A DNA stretch of 64,000 bases from Ignavibacteriales bacterium (GCA_016214905.1 JACRMQ010000001.1:1-64000); one strand, 5' to 3'; positions 11,100-24,022 are shown, counted from the stretch's first letter. The notes: generated from the sequence alone by a model not told the origin. Program-made: numbers and translations.

Positions 11100-13271
11100 T
11101 TAGATCGATAAATTCAGATTTAGATATAGCCCCCTTCCACGAGTAGAATACCCTTTTATTTCTCTGTATTTCGTGTTAAACAGATTTTCGATCTTTAAAC
11201 CGGCATTGACATTGGGTGAGAAAAGATATTTTGCATAGAAATCTACTATCGAATAATCTTCGACAGGAATTGTACCTAGAGCGCCGTAGGGACCAAGATT
11301 TGAATCGTAATAAACATCTCCTCTTCGTCCAATATACTTTAAGTTGATGTCAAGAAATAATTCTTTAATCGGTAAATAAGATAATCGGATATTTGCACTG
11401 CTCGGACGACGAACCAGTCCAATATATTCCGATTCTTTATTCATGAATGCACCTGTACCGAAGATTTGAACATGATTTCCTTGGGTGACAGACTGATCAA
11501 CAACATTCGGATTGTATTTAATTTTTCCATCAACGATTGATACGTTACCATCTATGAATATTTCATCACTAATTTGTTGTTTGACAGATAACTCAATCCC
11601 TTTAATTGATTGATCTCCGAGATTTAGGTAAGTATCACCCCGATAATCATTCCGAGACCAGTCGTTCCCAAGTGTATCTAAGCCGACGTTCTTATCCCAC
11701 AGATAAACATATTCGATCACATTTTTAGTCTTACTCTCGAAATAGGAAATACCAAACTCCAGATCCAAGATCGAGTGTTTTAATCCGATCTCGAATGAAG
11801 TAGTATATTCAGGAAATATATTTTTATTACCGCGTGTTATTCCCGATGTATAATCGATATTCGGAGAATAAAGTTGATATAAAGAAGGAGAGTTAAATCC
11901 TGTTCCATAAGAACCATACAATAACGTAAACGGAGTTAATTTTATTGATGGATTTAATTCATAAACGAATTCTGTACCGAAGGAAGAGTGTTTGAGAATT
12001 CTCCAACCGAAAGAGAGTGATAATAATCCAAGTTCATCACTTATCAAACTGCCATTTACCATACTATGTGAATAAATGCTCGCCGTTGATGCATCCAGAT
12101 CGAGAGTATCAAGATCTGTTAATGATTCGTATGGTCCCCAGCTACCGTTTAAATAAATGTATTGCCTTGACGACATATTTTCATTATATAAACTCCCTCC
12201 GAGTAATAATTCGAATTCAGAAGATTTATAATTTGCCTGAATTTCGTTTGAAGACACACTGCCCCTGTAACGTTCATCGTTATACGAATGATCATAGTTT
12301 CCAAACCAATCTATTTTTGATGAATCATCTATCGCCGTCCTTTTCATATCGGTATATCCACCGACAAATCTCAGATCTAATTCCTTAATCATACGATACG
12401 ATAAACCATAGGTAAATATATTCCTGTAATAATCTAAACTGTAATTGTCGTCATCTATATAAGCCCGTTTGTCTAAATCTTTCTTTTGATCGGTATTTTT
12501 ATACGAAGCGTAAATATCCAACATGTCGTCTACATAACCTACCATCCCAGTAAAATCACGATGTCGGAATCCATCACGATCCCTGTTTTTAAAATCTGTC
12601 AAAGATAAAACAGTGTCATCAGTTGCATCAATACCTTTCACAGATAAGTTATTCAGTTCAGTATTTATATAAAATCCTTCAGAGAATGTATAGTTTATAA
12701 ATAGATCTTGATTCAATGATGAAGTTGATTTACCAAAAGTGCCCGCACCAAAATTAAGATCAACATTTAAACCTGCATCTTGTTTTTTCCGGCTCAACAA
12801 GTTTACAACACCACCGATTGCAGATGAACCATAAAGTGAGCTGTTCAGTCCACTAACTATTTCAACTCGCTCAATATTTGATGTCGATAACTCAGATAAA
12901 TCAGGTGTGTTGTTTACGGATGATGGATCTGTGATCCGCACATTATCGATCATAATCACGGTTTGATTACTGTTTGCGCCTCGCATAAAGATCGACTGGT
13001 TCATTCCATAATTTTGACCCTCGCCGACAACGAATATGCTATTTTTTGAAGACAATGAACCGGATAAACTTTTCATAAAAGAATCGTTCAATTGCTCACG
13101 AGTAATTATTGATACGCTTTTACCGATATCTTTTATATTTTTTTCACTCCTTGTTGCAGTCACTACAAATTCTTTCATTGAATAAGTCATAAGAGAATCG
13201 GCAGATATCTGTTGAGAATTCAGGTAAGAATAAAAGAATATTGTGGAAACAATTATTAAAACGATTTTCAT
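11100..13271 (-). CDS. btuB: TonB-dependent outer-membrane receptor, BtuB-like (cobalamin uptake)
   Basis: 723 residues. A signal peptide (about 1-19), a TonB box/plug region with EFVVTATRSEKNIKDIG and NQTVIMIDNVRITDPS, GLNSSLYGSSAIGGVVNL closing the plug, then a 22-strand type barrel ending in FNTKYREIKGYSTRGRGLYLNLNLSI with the family's C-terminal aromatic/hydrophobic strand. It lacks a carboxypeptidase-like N-terminal domain, unlike the SusC-like receptor at 29784. The assignment to vitamin B12 rests mainly on the cobalamin riboswitch directly upstream (13405-13607). The start is ATG, 32 bp from the terminator of the expression platform. Confidence 0.85.
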   Translation of the reverse strand: MKIVLIIVSTIFFYSYLNSQQISADSLMTYSMKEFVVTATRSEKNIKDIGKSVSIITREQLNDSFMKSLSGSLSSKNSIFVVGEGQNYGMNQSIFMRGANSNQTVIMIDNVRITDPSSVNNTPDLSELSTSNIERVEIVSGLNSSLYGSSAIGGVVNLLSRKKQDAGLNVDLNFGAGTFGKSTSSLNQDLFINYTFSEGFYINTELNNLSVKGIDATDDTVLSLTDFKNRDRDGFRHRDFTGMVGYVDDMLDIYASYKNTDQKKDLDKRAYIDDDNYSLDYYRNIFTYGLSYRMIKELDLRFVGGYTDMKRTAIDDSSKIDWFGNYDHSYNDERYRGSVSSNEIQANYKSSEFELLLGGSLYNENMSSRQYIYLNGSWGPYESLTDLDTLDLDASTASIYSHSMVNGSLISDELGLLSLSFGWRILKHSSFGTEFVYELNPSIKLTPFTLLYGSYGTGFNSPSLYQLYSPNIDYTSGITRGNKNIFPEYTTSFEIGLKHSILDLEFGISYFESKTKNVIEYVYLWDKNVGLDTLGNDWSRNDYRGDTYLNLGDQSIKGIELSVKQQISDEIFIDGNVSIVDGKIKYNPNVVDQSVTQGNHVQIFGTGAFMNKESEYIGLVRRPSSANIRLSYLPIKELFLDINLKYIGRRGDVYYDSNLGPYGALGTIPVEDYSIVDFYAKYLFSPNVNAGLKIENLFNTKYREIKGYSTRGRGLYLNLNLSI

Positions 13272-13348: not shown

Positions 13349-13404
13349 CATACCAATAAAATCATCGATACTACCGCAACCTTCCCTCGAAGGTAATCTG
13401 AGGT

Positions 13405-13607
13405 CAAAATGCTGGTCGGTCTCCTGGCTTTCCCGATACTCAGTCAGTCTTCCCATCACACTTTTCGTATGACAGTGACCATAATTGACTGAATATACAA
13501 TCTCATCATAAACAAGATCGGGATTACAGTTGCGGGGCAGCTTCCGAATTTAACGGAATTCCCTGTTCCGGTTAAATTTTTCAATTCAACGGAACACCAA
13601 CATTGAT
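13405..13607 (-). ncRNA. Cobalamin riboswitch aptamer
   Basis: On the minus strand the two most conserved blocks of the class are present: GCTGCCCCGCAACTGTAA (core) and AGCCAGGAGACCGACC (B12 box). The outer P1 stem closes between AATGTTGGT (13604-13596) and ACCAGCATT (13416-13408), with one G-U pair. A promoter lies just upstream and an intrinsic terminator just downstream, giving a complete transcription-control unit for the btuB-like gene and the DUF6580 gene. Confidence 0.95.
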
Positions 13608-13631
13608 TATTTAAAAGAACAAGTTTTGAAT

Positions 13632-13675: not shown

Positions 13676-14818
13676 TTAAAAGTTAATTCTAACTCCCCCA
13701 CCAACCTGATGTGTTTGGAAACTGCCTGCGTCGTTTGTTTCTGGCAGGTTTGTTTTATTTCGTGAGTATTGATAAAGAAAATATAAATCAATTTTCTTAG
13801 TCAAATCGTATGATAGTTCAGTCGATAGTTTGTAATATTTGTCCTTTCGGCCATAATGATATTTATCCCCATAGCTGAGTGGATTGCCTAAACGGTCGAC
13901 TGTATCGATAGGATTCTTAGATGAAAGGTATTTTTGAAATTCGTAATTCAAATTGCATTTTAAACTAATCGGTATTTTTATGATTGAACGAAGATGAAGA
14001 TTAAATCCTATTTCTATTTCATTAGATCGATATGAGATATCGGAGATAGTGCTATCATAATTTTCTCTCCCTCTCGCTTTAGAAAGTGTATTTTGATAGC
14101 CAAGATCAAACGAGATGATACGGCTTGGATTGATGTCTACATTCCCTTTAATGATATGGGCACTGCTGTTTCTCTCGCTGAATTCACGATTGTAGTCTGA
14201 ATAAGCATAACCATAACCAACCTCAAACTGCACTAATTTGTTAAATTTTCGTCCTACATTAAGTGAAACGGATTGTTTATTTAAAAATGCTTCGACATAT
14301 CTCGAGAATAAACGATAAGGATTACGTTCAGGGATTTGATGATACCAGAAATTTCTCAAGTAAAAACGCGGCAGATTAGAATATGTAATATTGAGATAAT
14401 TCTTTCTTATAAAATACTGTTTTAAATCAATTTGATAAGAATTATAATTTCTGATGCTACTGGCACCATAAATATATTGGTTCCATTTTAAAGTTAGAGA
14501 TGTAGGATTATTTTTAAATATATTTATTTTTGTCCCATATTTGAATTTAAGATTCGTTACATTATCACTTATCCGCGCAATTGAATATTTTTTTAGATTC
14601 GACGGACTATATTTCGTCAAATCATATTTAATAATATCTAGCGGTGAATAATCAAGTATGTTGTCATCATACATCTCGGAAATATCCACTCTACCATGAA
14701 ATGTTAACTCATATTTGTTCTGTGTTGTCTGACCATAATTTATTGCTGTGGTGACAAAGATTAAGAAAATCACATAAACAATTCGATGATTAAAGTACAT
14801 CTTCATTTTATTCCTCAT
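13676..14818 (-). CDS. Putative outer-membrane beta-barrel protein of the PGA locus
   Basis: 380 residues. Signal peptide at about 8-30 (VYVIFLIFVTTAINYGQ), then alternating polar/aromatic strands (for example FEVGYGYAYSDYNRE, KIDLYFLYQYSRNKTN) to a C-terminal strand ending VGGGVRINF, with the aromatic final residue usual for barrel proteins. No family recognised. Its start overlaps the stop of the upstream gene (14808-15719) by 11 bp, so the two are translated together and probably work together. Last gene of the run pgsB-pgsC-pgsW-periplasmic protein-barrel, so a role in passing or anchoring poly-gamma-glutamate at the outer membrane is plausible but inferred from position alone. Confidence 0.6.
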   Translation of the reverse strand: MRNKMKMYFNHRIVYVIFLIFVTTAINYGQTTQNKYELTFHGRVDISEMYDDNILDYSPLDIIKYDLTKYSPSNLKKYSIARISDNVTNLKFKYGTKINIFKNNPTSLTLKWNQYIYGASSIRNYNSYQIDLKQYFIRKNYLNITYSNLPRFYLRNFWYHQIPERNPYRLFSRYVEAFLNKQSVSLNVGRKFNKLVQFEVGYGYAYSDYNREFSERNSSAHIIKGNVDINPSRIISFDLGYQNTLSKARGRENYDSTISDISYRSNEIEIGFNLHLRSIIKIPISLKCNLNYEFQKYLSSKNPIDTVDRLGNPLSYGDKYHYGRKDKYYKLSTELSYDLTKKIDLYFLYQYSRNKTNLPETNDAGSFQTHQVGGGVRINF

Positions 14819-15719
14819 TATTCATATCTTTTTTAGGTATTGAAAACTTGAACGCAATTGAGTGAGCAGCGGTTTCCTCTAATTTTATCTTGTATAAATG
14901 TTCACCTGAAGGGATATCTAAATTAATTTTATCCGGTTTCCCAGGTACAACATCCAACATATCTTGATATGTTATGCCGAGAGATTTAGTAGTCGTTAAC
15001 GGTTTCATCAATATTCTGGTATCATTCTCCCAAATTGATACTGAATACGTCTGCAGACCTTTCATAGCACTGTCAAAGTTTAACCTTCCAACCACCTGCA
15101 ATTTAGTTGGACCTACGATTCTTATTTGAACACTCTTCTGTTTGGAACAAGTGTAATAGGTAATCAATTTTTCCTTAATCACTGCTGTAACTACTTTATC
15201 ATAAACAAGAGGTTGCAAATCAACTTCCGATGATCTATTTTTTTTATTTTTCGAATTGACGCTGAATTTTAAAGCAGCCATACTGAAATCTTTCGAATCC
15301 AAAGATAAATCATATGTGTGCATACCGATTGGCACATCGAGCGAGAACTTTCTACTTTTCCCAGGTATAATATTTAAATTTTTAAATGATGCATCTGATT
15401 TTGAGGTGGTGGTTGAATATAACTTCACAACTTTGTTTTGCTCAGAAACTTTTATGGAATATATACCTTCTGAAGAATTATCACTCTTAAGACCCAATCT
15501 TGTTAGAATCTCCAATTTCGTTGGTCCACCCACTTTGATCTTAATAGGAGTATCCTTTGACAGTAAGTAATAAGTTTTTTCTTTCCCGTTTATTATTAAT
15601 TTAGTCTCTTTTCCGTTAACCGGTGATAACGGAATAGTTTTCCCTGCAAAACATAAAAATGGCATTGCAAGATAGAGTATAAATACGCCGTAAATCGTCT
15701 TCATAATATATTTATTCAT
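14808..15719 (-). CDS. Secreted protein with two copies of an unknown domain, PGA locus
   Basis: 303 residues from the ATG at 15719; the frame stays open to a TTG at 15728 but has no better start. Signal peptide at about residues 6-26 (TIYGVFILYLAMPFLCFAG). The mature part is an internal duplication: copy 1 (about 40-155) has VGGPTKLEILTRLG, a TTTSKS segment, VIPGK-like turn and a PIGMHTYDLSL strand; copy 2 (about 175-295) has IVGPTKLQVVGRLN, TTTKS, VVPGKPDKINLDIPSGEHLYKI. I do not recognise the domain. It overlaps the barrel gene downstream and follows pgsW by 31 bp, so it likely serves the PGA system in the periplasm. Confidence 0.6.
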   Translation of the reverse strand: MNKYIMKTIYGVFILYLAMPFLCFAGKTIPLSPVNGKETKLIINGKEKTYYLLSKDTPIKIKVGGPTKLEILTRLGLKSDNSSEGIYSIKVSEQNKVVKLYSTTTSKSDASFKNLNIIPGKSRKFSLDVPIGMHTYDLSLDSKDFSMAALKFSVNSKNKKNRSSEVDLQPLVYDKVVTAVIKEKLITYYTCSKQKSVQIRIVGPTKLQVVGRLNFDSAMKGLQTYSVSIWENDTRILMKPLTTTKSLGITYQDMLDVVPGKPDKINLDIPSGEHLYKIKLEETAAHSIAFKFSIPKKDMNNEE

Positions 15720-15750
15720 GATATTCAAATATAATAATCATTAAATATGG

Positions 15751-16872
15751 TTAGATATTTTTATTTTCTATTTTCTTTTTTTTAAATAGATAATGTTTAA
15801 CATCAATCCGGATCATGACAAAAACAATCAGCCCTAATAATATTGTCAGCATAATTGTGTTTGACACCGAATATCTGTCTTTGAAAAATAAAGTACCTTC
15901 TCCCAACTTTGGCGCTGTCTCGGCTACTTCAACAGGGAAATCATATTTTAGCGCAATCTTTTCCACTTCCAGTAAATTGATAACCGGCATACCTTGCTCA
16001 GCCATTTGATTTATCACTGCACGCACAGGAAAGTTTTTTATTGCAAGATGGTGTGTTAAACCCGGTGGTATTAACCGCGAGTTCTGAGATCCTCCAACCG
16101 AAGCAACTCCTCCTCCAATATTGATGTAACAAGCAATTGGTTTACCTTTACTTTCCGATTTATATATCTCCATCCTGGCATTGATATTATTTTCAAGAGC
16201 AGTTTCACTAATCAATCGTACATTATTTCGCTGAATCGCATCTTTAATCAAATTTCTTCCCTCCGGTGAGAGTCCACGTCCATTGTCTGATCCTCCTCCA
16301 ATCGATGCTGCGATAGATTTGAATTGGAATATTCCTTTTTGTCTTAATATTTCTTCCATATCAAGCCAGGTTAGATTAGGAACATTTGCGCCCCAATCAG
16401 ATGCACCAACAGAAGAAATGATAATTGGCTGAAGCTCCATTACTTTACAAGCAGCCAAGAATGAAATATTCCATGCCGGGAATGAACCTGTCATACCAAC
16501 TGCTACTGTACTATGCTTTTTAATTTTTGCTTTTATCAACATATCAACAAAAACCGCGGCATAATTTGGATTAGTAGATAAAATCTTGGAAGTTACCACT
16601 CCTCGGTCTGAAGTAATCAGTGTATTTTCTTGACCAATAATTCCAGTAGAATACGGATCGTTTTGCTTGTCGATTTTAAGTCCCAAATTTTCACTATGGT
16701 TTTTAATTGTTTGAAGCGCTACAAGCGAGAGTTGAGAGGCTTCAAGTTTTTTATCGAAATTAGGTTGTCTTTCGGGTTGAGCTGTTTGTTCAGCCACATA
16801 AAATATTGCAATCGACAATAACGTAAGTGCAATCAGCAACGTGTTCGATGGTTTTCCTTCAATCCATTTCAT
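15751..16872 (-). CDS. pgsW: Poly-gamma-glutamate system protein PgsW
   Basis: 373 residues from ATG at 16872, which overlaps the pgsC stop as ATGA; an upstream in-frame TTG at 16881 is too close to the purine-rich site to be preferred. One membrane segment near residues 10-28 (TLLIALTLLSIAIFYVA) and another near the C-terminus (IMLTILLGLIVFVMI) flank a large soluble domain with glycine-rich motifs (SIGGGSDNGRG, INIGGGVASVGG). It matches the poly-gamma-glutamate system protein family that accompanies pgsB and pgsC in Gram-negative bacteria. Its biochemical role is not established. Confidence 0.85.
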   Translation of the reverse strand: MKWIEGKPSNTLLIALTLLSIAIFYVAEQTAQPERQPNFDKKLEASQLSLVALQTIKNHSENLGLKIDKQNDPYSTGIIGQENTLITSDRGVVTSKILSTNPNYAAVFVDMLIKAKIKKHSTVAVGMTGSFPAWNISFLAACKVMELQPIIISSVGASDWGANVPNLTWLDMEEILRQKGIFQFKSIAASIGGGSDNGRGLSPEGRNLIKDAIQRNNVRLISETALENNINARMEIYKSESKGKPIACYINIGGGVASVGGSQNSRLIPPGLTHHLAIKNFPVRAVINQMAEQGMPVINLLEVEKIALKYDFPVEVAETAPKLGEGTLFFKDRYSVSNTIMLTILLGLIVFVMIRIDVKHYLFKKKKIENKNI

Positions 16873-17360
16873 ATGATCCAATCCTCTCGTAGAAATACCT
16901 CACCTCCGGTTATGATCATTAAAATAAGTCTAATCATGATGGCAGCAATAATCATTGTGCTGATGGTTTTAACGACTCCTTGTCTTTCCATCCAGTTTGC
17001 GATTAAACCGGGGATAATTAGACCTATCGTTTGCAGTTCAACTGTCAGGTAATTTGTTTGTATAACCAATATTTCGCGCGATAACCATCCGAATAAAAAT
17101 CCAACCAAGATCACCATGACAGTTCGCCTTCGTCCATATATGAACATATAGTTTGAAAGAAATTTTATCGCGAGGAATGTCAACAAGCTTACCAATATTG
17201 TTCCGACAATCCTTAACGGATGATGAAGCATCAGGGCTACATAACCCGGCACAACCATTCCTCCGGCTGCCAACCCCAATGTTTCAGTGAAAATCAAACT
17301 AAGAATTAAGCCAACCCCTACCGATTGGATAATTATATCTTTTGCGGCTTCAGTATACAA
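16869..17360 (-). CDS. pgsC: Poly-gamma-glutamate synthesis membrane subunit PgsC/CapC
   Basis: About 163 residues, roughly the usual 150 of the family, with four to five hydrophobic segments. The conserved PgsC start region, IIQSVGVGLILSLIFTETLG then AAGGMVVPGYVAL, is intact. PgsC forms the PGA synthase with PgsB in the inner membrane. There is no ATG in frame: I chose TTG at 17360, which has AAAGGA 7 nt upstream inside the end of pgsB; the frame stays open to other TTG codons as far as 17423. It overlaps pgsB by 11 bp and pgsW by 4 bp, so all three are translationally coupled. Confidence 0.85.
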   Translation of the reverse strand: MYTEAAKDIIIQSVGVGLILSLIFTETLGLAAGGMVVPGYVALMLHHPLRIVGTILVSLLTFLAIKFLSNYMFIYGRRRTVMVILVGFLFGWLSREILVIQTNYLTVELQTIGLIIPGLIANWMERQGVVKTISTMIIAAIMIRLILMIITGGEVFLREDWII

Positions 17361-18525
17361 GTTCTTTTCCTTTGTTTGTGAAATGAAGTAATAGTTCTTC
17401 GCCAAAACCAACGATGTTGCCAACGCCTAAGACTGTAGTTGCTGAATTTGTTAGTGCAACAACGTGTTGAAATACTTCCTCCGGTGGATTTGAAGAGAAG
17501 TCTGATATTGATTTTGCGGGTAAGCCAAGTGAAATTGCTTTATTATACAAAGCAGAAGTAAATTCACCGACTAATATAAAATGATCCGCAGGTAATTTCT
17601 TAGCAATTAATTCAGCAAGACTCTCGGTCCTCTGGATTCGATCTTTTCGACAATTTACAATTACTACAATTTTTTCTTCTTCGGATATATAACTTTTGAG
17701 GAGATCCCATATTATCAAATATGAATCAGGATCGTTCGCGGCAAAGGCGTTAACAAACTTTATCTCTTTTTCGAAATAATGAATTTTATAAATCCTCAAC
17801 ACACCAGGATCAGGTAAGGATTCGTGCATCCCCTTCAAGGCTTCAGTGCTCGATACTCCGGCATGTTCACAGACTGCTAAAGCCAATGCCACATTATCTT
17901 TATGCTCAACGTAAGAAAATCCTCTCATCATTTCATCAGTTATCTTATCAGATTGGACTAATCGTATTTGAGAATTTCTTTTTTTACCAACGTCATCAAA
18001 AATCGGTAAGTAGGTTTTCTCGGATGTAAATAGAACCGCATTATTCGGAACCGTGTTTGATAGAGATTGCGCCACATCCTTTATAGTCGGTCCCATCTCA
18101 TCAAGATGATCGGCACGAACATTCGTTATAACTCCGGTTGTTGCGTGAATCATCTGATGTTCCGCAATCATTTGATTCGGGGGCATTACTGCCATACACT
18201 CAATCACGAGAGCATCTACTTTTTCATCCAAAGCTTTATCCACAATTTTTAATTGCTCAATAATATTTGCTTTGCCGACCCTTGTAATTGGAATTTCCGA
18301 ACCATCAGGATGAATCATGCGGGCTTTTGTTCCTGTAGTTTTAGCGAATGTTCTAATTCCACCGCCTCTCAATCCCCCTGCGATTAAGCGAGTCACGGAA
18401 GATTTACCCCTTGTTCCGTTAACATGAATTCTTATCGGTATCTGCTTAACCTTTTGTTGATGAGTTCTGAATTCCCATACTCCAAGCCCAATCAATAATA
18501 TTAAAAGACCGACTGCAAAGATCAT
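17350..18525 (-). CDS. pgsB: Poly-gamma-glutamate synthase PgsB/CapB
   Basis: ATP-dependent amide ligase of the Mur ligase superfamily that polymerises glutamate through the gamma-carboxyl. 391 residues: an N-terminal membrane anchor (residues 1-17), the P-loop HVNGTRGKSSVTRLI with K41, the Mur-type VIECMAVMP near 105 and GVITNVRADHLDEMG near 130. Length and order match CapB/PgsB. It is 12 bp downstream of the T9SS beta-propeller gene and overlaps pgsC. Confidence 0.93.
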   Translation of the reverse strand: MIFAVGLLILLIGLGVWEFRTHQQKVKQIPIRIHVNGTRGKSSVTRLIAGGLRGGGIRTFAKTTGTKARMIHPDGSEIPITRVGKANIIEQLKIVDKALDEKVDALVIECMAVMPPNQMIAEHQMIHATTGVITNVRADHLDEMGPTIKDVAQSLSNTVPNNAVLFTSEKTYLPIFDDVGKKRNSQIRLVQSDKITDEMMRGFSYVEHKDNVALALAVCEHAGVSSTEALKGMHESLPDPGVLRIYKIHYFEKEIKFVNAFAANDPDSYLIIWDLLKSYISEEEKIVVIVNCRKDRIQRTESLAELIAKKLPADHFILVGEFTSALYNKAISLGLPAKSISDFSSNPPEEVFQHVVALTNSATTVLGVGNIVGFGEELLLHFTNKGKELVY

Positions 18526-18537
18526 ATTATTTCCGAG

Positions 18538-21500
18538 TTATTTTATTAAGAGCATTTTACTTGAAGACCGAGTTAACATTTGATTCGTTTCCAAATCAAA
18601 AGCTTTAAGAATAACAAAATAAACTCCGCTCGGTTGGTTTTGTCCGTCCCATTGAACCGTTCTGTAACCTTGATCCTGCACATCATCAACTAACGTGGAA
18701 ACAACTTGCCCTGCAACATTGATGATATTTAATTGCACCCTTGCACTTCTGGGAATTGAATAGCCGATAGAAGTTGCTGGATTAAATGGATTAGGATAAT
18801 TCTGCTCCAAAATAAATTTATCCGCTATCTGCTTATCACCTGTTTGATGTGAGGAAAGATAAATTCGTGAGATGTTGGATAAATCAATAATCGTTGTCCC
18901 CTTGCCTGAGATTTTATGCTCATGAAATCGATTATCACCGTCAATTACATTAATTTGGTATCTGACGTTTATATCTCTAACATCCCACGATATATTCAGC
19001 ACACTCTCATCGGAAACAATATTTATCGGAATAGTTTGAATATCTTTTGTGAAGATCTCTGCAAACCGTTGAGTTGAATATCTTACATCAAAACATCCTG
19101 CGGGTGGATTTGGTGGTATTGAATTTCTTTCTAATCCTTCGGTATTATTATCGAAAGAAAAATATAAAGTTCTTTCTCCCTGAGAATTTTTAAAACTAAT
19201 TCGATTCATGTTAGAGACGTTGCCGCTTTGTGTTTCCGAATAGGATAAACATTTTTCGCTGGTCTTTGATAATCCACCGATAGGAGTTGAGAGGATAATT
19301 TTACCGCCCTGGTTGACTTTAACCCAATATCCCTTACCGGGAATAATTGTATCAGACCGTGCATAGCCTGAACCATTCGAATAACCGAAATAATTTGTAA
19401 GAATTGTTACGGGAGATATAGGGGTTATATTTCCGATCGGAATCTTATGATACAAAGATCCAATGATATTCCAGTTTGGCAGAACGTCTATTGTATCATT
19501 AACAACTTTTAGTCCACCTATGCTCATATTATTTGAATTGGGAAATTTTAACCAATATCCGTGTCCTATCCGTAAAGTATCGTTGAGATTGTAGCTATTG
19601 GAATATGAAAAAGCGGGTGAATTCGCTGTGGGGAATAATGCTACTTTACGAAAATCACCAACATTCAATGGAACTGAGATAAGATTCCATCCAACTTCGA
19701 CCGGTATATCCAACATTGCCGATGTAGTTGTATCCAAAACATTTATTGAAACTTTTTGACTATCCAGTAAAATTCCATCTGACGCATAAATGGTTAGGTT
19801 ATACAGACCAATTTGTGATTGCAATGGATTCCAACTAAATAAGGCGTGTCCATTCGAACTATCGAAAAATATTGCACCTACCGGGAGATTCGCAGCACTC
19901 AAGGTTGGGATTGGACCATCAGGATCAGATGAAAATATACTAAAATTTAACAACGATCCGGGCAGTACAACCTTACTTCCTATTACGTCTATTTTGGGAG
20001 GATGATTTACATTTTGATATGTTGTGTGAAAAATACCGTGACTACCTGTACCGACATAAAGATTTAATGGATCCGCATCATCGCTTTCAATTGAGTAGAT
20101 TTCTAAATCCGGCAATCCTGTATTATATGTGGTCCAGTGGGCTCCACTATCAATACTCATAAATATTCCGTCACCAAACGTTCCGACGAAGAATATATTT
20201 CGATAAAGGGGATGCTGAAGAATAGACCTTACAGAATGGGTAACAGGTAACTGGTAGTGTAAATTCCACCCTGCGCCAGAATTTATGCTTTTATAAATTC
20301 GCCCGCTGTCAGATCCAACATATATGATATTGCTTAGTTGGTTATCAATGGTGATAGTCCTTATAAATCTATCCTGAAGAAGAAATCCGTTAACGTTCGT
20401 AATTTGTACCCAACTATTTCCACCGTCGGTAGATTTGAATAGATAACTCGAATCTGAACCAGCATAAATATTGTTCAGATTATTATGATCTAAGCTCAAA
20501 GATCTAATTGACGTTAATGACGGTATTCCAACACTTGACGATGTCCAACTCAATCCACCATTAACAGTTTTATAAATTCCGTTCCCAGTTCCAGCATAAA
20601 CGATATTTGAATTTGAAGGATGAACCGCAAGACTTCTGACAAATTTATTTATCGTTGTTGAATCGGTAACCGACCACACATGCCCTCCGTTTATGCTCTT
20701 AAAAACTCCACTACCATAGCTACTTGCATATAGAACTGCATTATCATTGGTTATTTCAATGGAGGTAATCGAGTTTGATGTTTTTAATGTATCGGTTTTA
20801 ACCCAACTCGAAGTTTGATCTGAGGACAACCAGATTCCGTCACCAAAATCAGTTCCAGCTATTATATTACCATTACCGTTAATTCTGAGGACTCTTCCAC
20901 CGGTTCCTAGCATTCCATTATTACTGCTCTGCCATGTGAATCCAGAATCAATGCTACGATATATCCCCCTTCCTTCTGTTGCGGCGTAAACATTATTCTT
21001 TGACAACGAATGAATGTCAATATCATTTATTGGGGCTTGTGTGCCAGGTAAACCTGCCGCCGATAACCAGCCGTTATTAATATCCCCAATCGGTCGGTAA
21101 TAAAACTTCCCCAATGAATCCGTCCCGGCGTATCTATATTTCTCTGTGAATGCGACTGAATTAATTTGCAAATCAAGAATCGGATTGGGAGTAGCTCCAG
21201 CGTTTATTTCTGTCCAATTTGTTCCTGCGTTTGTTGACTTATAAACTCCTTGAGCCGCAGTGCCAATAATCAAACTTGAATCTGGCTTATTGGAACTGAT
21301 GGCTACTGATTTTACACTGCTTCTAATCCCGGTGGGCCATTGCAGTTGAACCCAATTAGTCCCCCCATTCCTCGATCTGAATAATGCCCCACCCTGATTG
21401 ATATCGGCTATAGATCCACCGACATAAATTGAGTCACGTCCGTAAATCGCCACCGACCATAAATGTGGCATTGTTTCTGATGTTACAGGATCGTGTACGG

Positions 21501-21975
21501 TTATATTCGTCCATGTGGTGCCAAGATCGGTAGTCTTGAATAAACCACTTCCATAAGAAGCCGAATACACATTTCCGGAATATTTATCGTAAGCGATACT
21601 CCGGATTGAATTCACTGTTGAGAGCGATAAGGTCCAGCTTATACCACCATTTATAGTTTTGTATACTCCATCATTTGTTCCTGCAAATACAACCGTATCG
21701 GAAAGAGATAAGAGTGAACGGATGTGAGCATTTGTCAAACCGTTCCGATAATTAATCCATGTAACTCCACCATCGGTACTTTTAAAAACTCCCCAGCCGA
21801 AGGCACCTGCATACAATATATTCTGATTATTCGGAGAATGAGTTATTGCTTTAATATTTTTATGATAAGGTCCATTACCAATCCAGGTCTGTCCATTCAA
21901 CCCTGAGAATATCGAAGTGGTGCTTATTGTCAGAATAATATATAAACGATAGTTTTTTAATCTTTGAAAAAACAT
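18538..21975 (-). CDS. T9SS-secreted beta-propeller (BNR/sortilin-like) surface protein upstream of pgsB
   Basis: 1145 residues from ATG at 21975, which has AAGGAG 6 nt upstream. A signal peptide (to about residue 30) is followed by some 14 BNR/sortilin-like repeats (SxDGGxTW, FKSTDGG, YAGTxxGVYKT) filling about residues 40-650 and likely forming two propellers. Next come an Ig/cadherin-like domain near 660-745, a linker region, and a T9SS type A sorting domain with EQNYPNPFNPATSI and final MLLIK. So it is exported and anchored on the surface. It lies 12 bp upstream of pgsB on the same strand; such close linkage suggests one transcript, yet similar proteins are common in this lineage, so a role in PGA is unproven. 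Confidence 0.85.
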   Translation of the reverse strand: MFFQRLKNYRLYIILTISTTSIFSGLNGQTWIGNGPYHKNIKAITHSPNNQNILYAGAFGWGVFKSTDGGVTWINYRNGLTNAHIRSLLSLSDTVVFAGTNDGVYKTINGGISWTLSLSTVNSIRSIAYDKYSGNVYSASYGSGLFKTTDLGTTWTNITVHDPVTSETMPHLWSVAIYGRDSIYVGGSIADINQGGALFRSRNGGTNWVQLQWPTGIRSSVKSVAISSNKPDSSLIIGTAAQGVYKSTNAGTNWTEINAGATPNPILDLQINSVAFTEKYRYAGTDSLGKFYYRPIGDINNGWLSAAGLPGTQAPINDIDIHSLSKNNVYAATEGRGIYRSIDSGFTWQSSNNGMLGTGGRVLRINGNGNIIAGTDFGDGIWLSSDQTSSWVKTDTLKTSNSITSIEITNDNAVLYASSYGSGVFKSINGGHVWSVTDSTTINKFVRSLAVHPSNSNIVYAGTGNGIYKTVNGGLSWTSSSVGIPSLTSIRSLSLDHNNLNNIYAGSDSSYLFKSTDGGNSWVQITNVNGFLLQDRFIRTITIDNQLSNIIYVGSDSGRIYKSINSGAGWNLHYQLPVTHSVRSILQHPLYRNIFFVGTFGDGIFMSIDSGAHWTTYNTGLPDLEIYSIESDDADPLNLYVGTGSHGIFHTTYQNVNHPPKIDVIGSKVVLPGSLLNFSIFSSDPDGPIPTLSAANLPVGAIFFDSSNGHALFSWNPLQSQIGLYNLTIYASDGILLDSQKVSINVLDTTTSAMLDIPVEVGWNLISVPLNVGDFRKVALFPTANSPAFSYSNSYNLNDTLRIGHGYWLKFPNSNNMSIGGLKVVNDTIDVLPNWNIIGSLYHKIPIGNITPISPVTILTNYFGYSNGSGYARSDTIIPGKGYWVKVNQGGKIILSTPIGGLSKTSEKCLSYSETQSGNVSNMNRISFKNSQGERTLYFSFDNNTEGLERNSIPPNPPAGCFDVRYSTQRFAEIFTKDIQTIPINIVSDESVLNISWDVRDINVRYQINVIDGDNRFHEHKISGKGTTIIDLSNISRIYLSSHQTGDKQIADKFILEQNYPNPFNPATSIGYSIPRSARVQLNIINVAGQVVSTLVDDVQDQGYRTVQWDGQNQPSGVYFVILKAFDLETNQMLTRSSSKMLLIK

Positions 21976-22310
21976 TATCAACTCCTTGATGTAGAGTTAT
22001 TAACAAATAAAATTGGATTTATATTTTTGAGACTTGGAGGAAATGACTTATCATGGGGGTCGGTGCAGATAAGAATACCGAAACATGATATTGGCCGAAT
22101 GTTGAGTAAAAAAGCGGGATGAAATCATCATCTATTCCTTAATAGTTTGGTATATAGATCATTTGAATCTAAAACGAAGAAACTTAAAGTAAAGTTCCAA
22201 TCATGTTTATGATCCATTCAGTATCGACATTTTATTATTTTGATATTATGATATTGAATATTTCCGCTTGTATCAAGATATTGTAGATAATCTGTGTTTT
22301 TTGGCACACA
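21976..22310 (-). other. Intergenic leader before the T9SS propeller/pgs operon
   Basis: 335 bp without a gene. Besides the promoter at 22248-22276, a second weaker candidate lies nearer the gene: TTCAAA, 17 bp, TATTAA on the minus strand, around 22139-22168. An imperfect hairpin with arms 22049-22064 and 22077-22090 (TATCATG and TCGGT against ACCGA and CATGATA) falls in the presumed 5' untranslated region. No known riboswitch signature was recognised. Confidence 0.4.
22248..22276 (-). promoter_or_regulatory. Sigma70-type promoter candidate for the propeller/pgs operon
   Basis: On the minus strand TTGATA (22276-22271), 17-bp spacer, TATCAT (22253-22248). It would give a leader of about 265 nt before the ATG at 21975. 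Confidence 0.5.
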
Positions 22311-23999
22311 TCAATACCCTTTTGCAGATCCACCCTCCCTGAAATCAGGGTTCGCATAAATCATTTTCTTTTCCGGATCAATCATTATCGCCTGAACTGC
22401 TCCATAGTAATTTTCTTTTTCACATGGATTATGACCTTTAATTTTCAAATTCTGATTAACATCAATCGGTAAACAGAATTTTTCATAAAATAATGTATCA
22501 GGCATCCATTGGTGATGAAAACGAAAAGTATTGACAGCGCTTGAGATATCCATCTTAAAATCAATCACGTTAATTATGGTTTGAAGTACTGAAGTGATAA
22601 TCGCCGATCCACCTCGCGCTCCTAAAATCATTATCGGTTTCCCGTCTTTTGTAACAATTGTCGGAGTCATGGAACTGAGAGGACGTTTCCGGGGCTCTAT
22701 AGAATTAGCATATCCGCCAATCAATCCGTAACTATTCGGAATTCCTGGTTTTGAACTGAAATCGTCCATCTCATCATTTAGAAAAAATCCGGCACCAGCC
22801 ACTATCACCTGACTACCAAATATATCATTGATCGTGTAAGTTACAGATACACAATTTCCCAAAGAATCAATCACTGCATAATGAGTGGTATTTGGATGGT
22901 CTTTCATATCAACAATTCCGGGCTTAATACTTCCAGATATAGCCGATTTCATCGTGTCAATATCTGACGATCTTTCCACCGCATATTTTTTTGATATCAG
23001 GATATCTGTTGGTACTCTTGTAAATTCAGGATCACCTAAATATTCCGATCTATCTGAATATACCCTCTTCATCGCTTCGCTTATGACATGAACCGATTTT
23101 GAGGAATGAAACCCCATAGCGTGAAGATTATAATTCTCCAGAATATTGAGCATCTCAATCAGACATACTCCACCTGAACTCGGTGGTGGTATGGAGATAA
23201 TTTCATATCCACGATAAGATCCGCGAAGTGGTTCCCTGATCTTCGGTGTATAATTCTTCAGATCCTCCTTCGTGATCAAACCGCCATCATTTTGCATCTG
23301 ATTAAGAATCATATTTGCAGTTTCGCCGGCATAAAATTCATCAACACCGTGATTTCTAATGCGTCTTAATGTTTTTGCCAGATCGGGCTGCACTAAAGTA
23401 TCTCCCGCAACGTATCGATTTCCATTTTTAAAAAATGCTTTTATGGTTGAAGGGTATGCTCTTAAATCTGTCTCATATTCAAGTATTTTTTCCTCCAACC
23501 TTCGATTGACGATAAATCCATTTTCAGCGATGTCGATAGCCGGGGTTATTACATCGCCGGTGCTCATAGTACCGTAATCTTTCAAGGCTTTCAATAAACC
23601 TGCAACAGTACCGGGTACACCTGCAGACAGAACTCCTCTCACAGAATTTTTTGAGACATTATTGAGGCTATCGAGATACATATCCCGCCAAGCGCTTTTC
23701 GGTGAGGTCTCCCGAAAATCGATGACAACCGATTTTCCGGTATTCTCCCTGATAAGCATAAATCCTCCGCCGCCGATATTCCCGGCTTCCGGAAAAACAA
23801 CCGCTAATGTGAAGCCGATAGCTACCGCCGCATCAACTGCATTCCCACCTTTTTTCAATATGGAAAGCCCTACTTCCGATGCTAATCGGTCGGCAGAAAC
23901 AACCATTCCATTTTTTGATTGTTCAGATTGTGCATTGATTGTTGATGCTGAGTAAAAACAAATTAACGAAAGTACCAGCAGACAACGGCACAGACGAAT
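22311..23999 (-). CDS. ggt: Gamma-glutamyltransferase/CapD-family enzyme, possible PGA hydrolase or transferase
   Basis: Ntn-hydrolase that splits itself and transfers or hydrolyses gamma-glutamyl bonds. Counting from the first ATG (23906): GGNAVDAAVA near 20, GGGGFMLI near 45, RETSP near 65 (glutamate-binding arginine), the self-cleavage/nucleophile threonine T340 in HPNTTHYAVIDSLG, and KRPLSSMTPTIV. That ATG would leave out the signal peptide, yet the upstream frame encodes a good one (CLLVLSLICFYSASTINAQ) with no ATG, GTG or TTG. I extend to the ATT codon at 23997-23999, 23 bp after the ssb stop. Because PGA is gamma-linked and the pgs genes follow on the same strand, a CapD-like or PGA-degrading role is attractive; glutathione turnover is the alternative. 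Confidence 0.85.
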   Translation of the reverse strand: MRLCRCLLVLSLICFYSASTINAQSEQSKNGMVVSADRLASEVGLSILKKGGNAVDAAVAIGFTLAVVFPEAGNIGGGGFMLIRENTGKSVVIDFRETSPKSAWRDMYLDSLNNVSKNSVRGVLSAGVPGTVAGLLKALKDYGTMSTGDVITPAIDIAENGFIVNRRLEEKILEYETDLRAYPSTIKAFFKNGNRYVAGDTLVQPDLAKTLRRIRNHGVDEFYAGETANMILNQMQNDGGLITKEDLKNYTPKIREPLRGSYRGYEIISIPPPSSGGVCLIEMLNILENYNLHAMGFHSSKSVHVISEAMKRVYSDRSEYLGDPEFTRVPTDILISKKYAVERSSDIDTMKSAISGSIKPGIVDMKDHPNTTHYAVIDSLGNCVSVTYTINDIFGSQVIVAGAGFFLNDEMDDFSSKPGIPNSYGLIGGYANSIEPRKRPLSSMTPTIVTKDGKPIMILGARGGSAIITSVLQTIINVIDFKMDISSAVNTFRFHHQWMPDTLFYEKFCLPIDVNQNLKIKGHNPCEKENYYGAVQAIMIDPEKKMIYANPDFREGGSAKGY

Positions 24000-24022
24000 T
24001 GCAAGATTTTCGAAACTATATT

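Follow-up and report, generated by a model that had tools for sequence, protein, structure and literature searches.

The closest described counterpart of the locus reported here is the PgsB-PgsC-PgsA (CapBCA) system for poly-gamma-glutamate (PGA) of Bacillus, in which we take PgsB to be the gamma-glutamyl ligase, driven by ATP, and PgsC the membrane protein that partners it. PGA systems have been recognised in the majority of phyla, and a published model treats CapA as an accessory and has no outer-membrane component (PMC5542703); such a part is therefore to be expected in bacteria with two membranes (diderms). PGA operons have been described in Cloacimonadota, and among Gram-negative bacteria Fusobacterium nucleatum, which has Pgs/Cap genes, is reported to produce polyglutamate (Candela 2009, cited in PMC3815933). 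Unlike the locus described below, the Fusobacterium machinery is presented in that source as homologous to that of B. subtilis, with no outer-membrane component named. Our locus occupies positions 13,676 to 23,999, minus strand, of a window of 64,000 nucleotides (the whole stretch of DNA analysed) from an Ignavibacteriales bacterium (GCA_016214905.1, JACRMQ010000001.1:1-64000). As in Bacillus, PgsB and PgsC, orthologous by curated models, are followed by a third subunit. Unlike in Bacillus, this third gene is pgsW, whose product is unrelated in sequence to CapA and has no CapA-like fold match; the genome has no CapA, and genes for a protein that we call P306 and for an outer-membrane barrel (OMP) come after it. 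We consider it reasonably probable that the locus encodes a PgsB-PgsC-PgsW synthase for PGA, or for a related gamma-glutamyl polymer, together with its own module for export through the periplasm and the outer membrane.

PgsW beside PgsB and PgsC

Profile searches and gene calls recovered every gene that an earlier reading of the DNA (the sequence-only reading) had named, all on the minus strand and in the order it gave. PgsB (17350-18525), a gamma-glutamyl ligase of the Mur-ligase type, scores 460 bits with TIGR04012 against a curated cut-off of 223, and a motif check found its P-loop (HVNGTRGKSS) intact. PgsC (16869-17423), the integral membrane partner of PgsB, reaches 133.5 bits with TIGR04011 (curated cut-off, 96) and 123.5 bits with PF14102. 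The two genes are adjacent and both products lie above their curated equivalog cut-offs. The start of PgsC is doubtful, the annotated protein being around 34 codons longer than that of most relatives in a start alignment, with the conserved core beginning near 17321. Adjoining pgsBC is the gene for the third subunit, PgsW (15751-16881; TIGR04332, 320.4 bits against a curated cut-off of 100), a clear member of the NCBIfam family whose name, 'poly-gamma-glutamate system protein', already links it to Pgs systems. The papers searched contained nothing on either PgsW or TIGR04332. From the gene for a surface propeller, which precedes pgsB by 12 bp, to OMP, the genes are closely packed or overlapping in an operon-like manner: pgsB/pgsC, pgsC/pgsW and P306/OMP overlap, and the gap between pgsW and P306 is at most 46 bp. 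A gene for a gamma-glutamyltransferase (GGT) is separated from this block by 329 bp.

The absence of CapA/PgsA, which the sequence-only reading had proposed, holds genome-wide: the CapA model PF09587 gave no match in the host genome (3.3 Mb, 99.64% complete), and was positive in 7 of 14 control genomes. CapA is thus found neither beside pgsC nor elsewhere in this genome, and PgsW holds its position. That PgsW stands where CapA would stand is borne out by four phylum samples, which included 395 genomes of the host's phylum and 299 of a Bacillota-type phylum. Beside PgsC, 44 loci have PgsW, 4 have CapA and none has both. Within the host's phylum, the 12 genomes of the 395 that have PgsC are exactly those that have full-length PgsW, a co-occurrence with a chance probability of about 4e-23 if shared ancestry is ignored. 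The Bacillota-type sample has PgsC in 27 of its 299 genomes, and the neighbour is PgsW in 21, CapA in 4 and neither in 2, while the two further samples contain 9 and 2 PgsC loci with PgsW and none with CapA. One of the two loci with neither neighbour is a fragment; the other, L137 (2194-3039), is a Bacillota-type pgsBC locus in which the next gene encodes a poly-gamma-glutamate hydrolase (PF05908).

An AlphaFold2 (AF2) model of PgsW (pLDDT 93.7) shows a transmembrane helix at each end and between them an alpha/beta extracytoplasmic domain of around 300 amino acids. Foldseek found no fold match for it in the PDB at E<=0.001, and this result, together with the lack of a PDB profile match, led us to reject the idea that PgsW is a hidden CapA. 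PgsW is also common in loci of Clostridia, Lachnospiraceae and Oscillospiraceae, which we take to be single-membrane bacteria. The idea that PgsW is an adaptation found only in diderms is therefore ruled out by the Bacillota loci that carry it. The sequence-only reading had viewed the whole system as adapted to two membranes; this has to be given up for PgsW and is upheld for P306 and OMP, which are the envelope-specific part of the cassette.

P306, OMP and a candidate export route

Linkage was examined in a comparison set of about 100 related loci, a scan of named genomes having given 74 loci; counts were taken from gene maps and the motif list, and an automatic count was set aside for its narrow distance limits, its model of the C25 peptidase family also matching the tails of proteins sorted by the type IX secretion system (T9SS). 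Two layouts emerged. In type A, found in metagenome-assembled genomes (MAGs) of Bacteroidota, Ignavibacteriota and Chlorobiota, a gene for a T9SS-sorted C25 protein or propeller is followed by pgsB, pgsC, pgsW, P306 and OMP and then, in some loci, by genes for an LVIVD protein and an HGSNAT-like acyltransferase. Type B, present in Ignavibacteriota, Bacillota, Aminicenantota and Spirochaetota, consists of a DctM-like permease, an AstE/AspA-type enzyme (PF24827), DUF6305, often a GGT lacking the lid loop, and pgsBCW. The type A loci form one PgsW clade (support 100/100), to which the Gemmatimonadota locus L043 also belongs. The two genes following pgsW, which the sequence-only reading had drawn into the system, are constantly linked to the cassette within this clade: P306 directly follows PgsW in each of the 26 distinct loci of type A, and wherever the locus extends far enough to show it (24 loci) OMP comes directly after P306. 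Among the 395 genomes, the P306 profile matched only the six of type A, plus one match of 22 bits.

The same comparison bears on CapA, whose presence elsewhere in the genome had been offered as a ground for dropping the proposal. It is absent from the host genome; a CapA domain does occur somewhere in 16 of the 26 genomes with the same cassette, and its absences in the other type A genomes are less certain because many of these are MAGs.

In P306 (14808-15728) a signal peptide precedes two homologous domains of around 130 amino acids in tandem (hhalign probability of the two halves 99.6, E 1.6e-24); the protein has no match in Pfam or NCBIfam, and PDB sequences gave nothing firm. OMP (13676-14818) likewise begins with a signal peptide, and the alignment shows a conserved YDDNIL(K/D)YS motif and Phe as the last residue. 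A weak match to PF10082 (E 0.0025) was found, with no firm match in Pfam or NCBIfam. Its AF2 model (pLDDT 82.7) is a barrel of 14 long strands, as in outer-membrane proteins, and the best Foldseek matches are the monomeric porins OmpG and CymA (E 3e-10 to 1e-9), the PgaA barrel being listed as well.

These nearest folds raise the question of direction. OmpG and CymA pass sugars or cyclodextrins inward, and the permease and AstE/AspA-type enzyme of the type B relatives look catabolic, so that OMP could be an uptake or nutrient porin in a cassette that stores or recycles a glutamate polymer, its linkage reflecting turnover and not export. We regard this as improbable, since type A cassettes contain no permease, hydrolase or lid-less GGT, and neither OMP nor P306 was ever seen without the synthase genes in our sample.

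For the export reading, the identity of the polymer, its path and its role at the surface are what we infer from these genes. The chain would be made by PgsB, the cytoplasmic ligase, and PgsC in the membrane, with PgsW, by its two-helix anchor and large extracytoplasmic domain, filling the place that CapA/PgsA has in Bacillus. P306 may act in the periplasm as the link that passes the polymer onward, and the predicted 14-strand barrel would let it leave through the outer membrane. At the surface, the T9SS-delivered propeller, or the degenerate gingipain-like protein of most relatives, would perhaps hold or organise the polymer. Exit through a barrel has precedents for secreted polymers in AlgE, PgaA, BcsC and EpsX (PMC9601211). 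As with AlgE, PgaA and EpsX, a dedicated barrel is encoded here alongside the synthase of a polymer and an envelope protein linked to it; unlike in those systems, that protein is P306, there is no OPX or TPR partner, and the putative product is a polyamide instead of a polysaccharide. A fuller version, in which the locus is a dedicated two-membrane machine for secretion of a poly-amino acid, with P306 as conduit, the barrel as exit, the dead gingipain or the propeller docking the polymer, and PgsW, not CapA, as the third subunit that is ancestral to PgsBC enzymes or prevails among them, is a tentative proposal that we would hold with some doubt.

Several observations weigh against export of a polymer by this module. 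OMP has 14 strands versus the 16-18 of known polymer exporters, to which it is unrelated in sequence, and a search of PDB sequences yielded no relative; for P306, sequence comparison gives no recognisable fold. The Gemmatimonadota PgsW of L043 falls inside the type A clade, yet its locus has neither P306 nor OMP, and the genes following its pgsW were rejected as divergent forms of the two. No polymer has been reported, in the literature searched, for any organism with this PgsBCW cassette. In Francisella, the similarly annotated Gram-negative locus capBCA is needed for virulence and capB and capC are dispensable for the capsule; one paper lists its capA as 'poly-gamma-glutamate system protein', the name of the PgsW family (PMC5362203, PMC4688374).

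The Francisella result also favours another explanation, namely that PgsBCW makes a short gamma-glutamyl modification of lipopolysaccharide (LPS), peptidoglycan or T9SS surface proteins, and that P306 and OMP place or retain the product. It would agree with the membership of PgsB in the Mur/FolC ligase family and with the T9SS-secreted C25 or propeller proteins that the cassette accompanies. However, other pgsBC(W) loci adjoin a PGA hydrolase (L137) or a lid-less GGT (type B), as would fit a real PGA polymer, and no linked gene for glycosyl or LPS transfer was found, save the HGSNAT-like acyltransferase of some relatives. On balance, we think such a modification unlikely.

Surface proteins, type B loci and neighbouring genes

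The gene before pgsB in the window encodes a Sortilin-type propeller (18538-21981, minus strand; PF15902, 80 bits) with a Por_Secre_tail for T9SS sorting, and L018 and L026 likewise have a T9SS propeller there instead of a gingipain-like protein. The T9SS protein resembles gingipains (PF01364, PF08126, Por_Secre_tail) in 19 type A loci: L017 (12510-16286), L014-L016, L027-L034, L036, L038, L041, L042, L059, L090 and L099. In most of them its gene is the one immediately before pgsB; in L042 it precedes the gene for a CapA-domain protein, and in L014 and L015 it comes after the LVIVD gene. Alignment to the reference gingipain R2 (4ief) shows that the NYTGHG motif has Glu or Gln in place of its catalytic His in 24 of 24 sequences (some from duplicate loci) and that the Cys is kept. 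The cassette proteins thus do not have the catalytic His and Cys pair of C25 peptidases, and by their sequences they appear to be a conserved pseudo-peptidase tied to the pgs genes.

The CapA-domain protein of L042 (3995-7006) is one of a group of proteins of around 1000 amino acids with a PGA_cap (CapA) domain, also found in L014, L015 and L112-L119; it carries a PKD domain and a T9SS tail (the tail having been checked in L042). Such a T9SS protein was seen in or beside the cassette in three loci only (L042, L014/L040 and L015) and elsewhere in other genomes, and was rejected as a standard part of the cassette. Its architecture suggests that in the L042, L014 and L015 proteins a CapA-type domain has moved to the cell surface. 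At the other end of some type A cassettes, L030 (14355-15491), L033, L034, L036, L059 and L090 encode the HGSNAT-like membrane acyltransferase and a protein of around 290 amino acids after the LVIVD protein. It is possible that this acyltransferase carries out a polymer-modifying step. Type B loci (L019-L024, L048, L058, L060-L067, L070, L078, L083, L084, L089 and L096) look like a set for making and recycling a polymer.

The GGT gene (22311-23999, minus strand; TIGR00066, 603 bits against a cut-off of 358) had been given a CapD-like role by the sequence-only reading, in which the enzyme anchors or cuts the polymer and everything from GGT to OMP works as a single unit. This version has in its favour that the window and L018 (genome G251) have a GGT adjoining the cassette, and that linkage of a GGT to pgsB is frequent in type B loci and is also seen in the CapA loci L142, L143 and L146. 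The window enzyme also belongs to the same superfamily as CapD and the lid-less GGT of Bacillus; unlike them, it is E. coli-like, with the E. coli GGT as closest match (540 bits to 2e0w), and has a 12-residue lid loop, PGIPNSYGLIGG, with its Tyr, aligned to PGVPNVYGLVGG of E. coli. This loop is present in the GGTs of the window and L018 and absent from the 18 other pgs-linked GGTs. Enzymes with a lid loop favour small substrates and use bulky PGA poorly, and grafting the loop onto the B. subtilis GGT had the same effect (review, PMC8062742). Linkage to the cassette is not conserved either: only 2 of 26 type A loci have a GGT beside it. The window GGT is the sole copy in its genome, four other type A genomes have their only GGT elsewhere, and the closest relative, L026, has 79% DNA identity on both flanks, a site without GGT and no GGT in its genome. 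Because of the lid loop, the empty L026 site and the position of the copies in other genomes, the GGT is probably an ordinary housekeeping neighbour outside the polymer system; the CapD analogy was rejected, and a single unit from GGT to OMP seems to us very improbable indeed. The GGT gene has its first ATG (23906) within the conserved core of the enzyme. The stretch upstream of it that resembles a signal peptide (23906-24022, minus strand) offers only ATT and CTG as in-frame starts, 23999 being an ATT, and no ATG, GTG or TTG; the gene therefore probably has an unusual start codon or contains a sequence error.

At its other end the cassette stops at 13676. A cobalamin riboswitch (13397-13614, minus strand; RF00174, 76.3 bits) lies 61 bp beyond the end of OMP and belongs to the next gene, which encodes a TonB receptor (11100-13271) and has the riboswitch upstream.

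PgsW and the outer-membrane module among PGA systems

In the literature searched we found no account of the mutual exclusivity of PgsW and CapA, the predominance of PgsW, the type A and B cassettes, the export model proposed here, the P306/OMP module or a degenerate gingipain partner. Beside PgsC in the sampled phyla, PgsW is the rule and CapA, the third subunit of the textbooks, the exception, and therefore searches for PGA producers that are based on CapA would miss most such loci. For the Gram-negative outer membrane, the cassette supplies a candidate exit pore for PGA and a candidate partner in the periplasm, both conserved across a range that extends from Bacteroidota to Ignavibacteriota.

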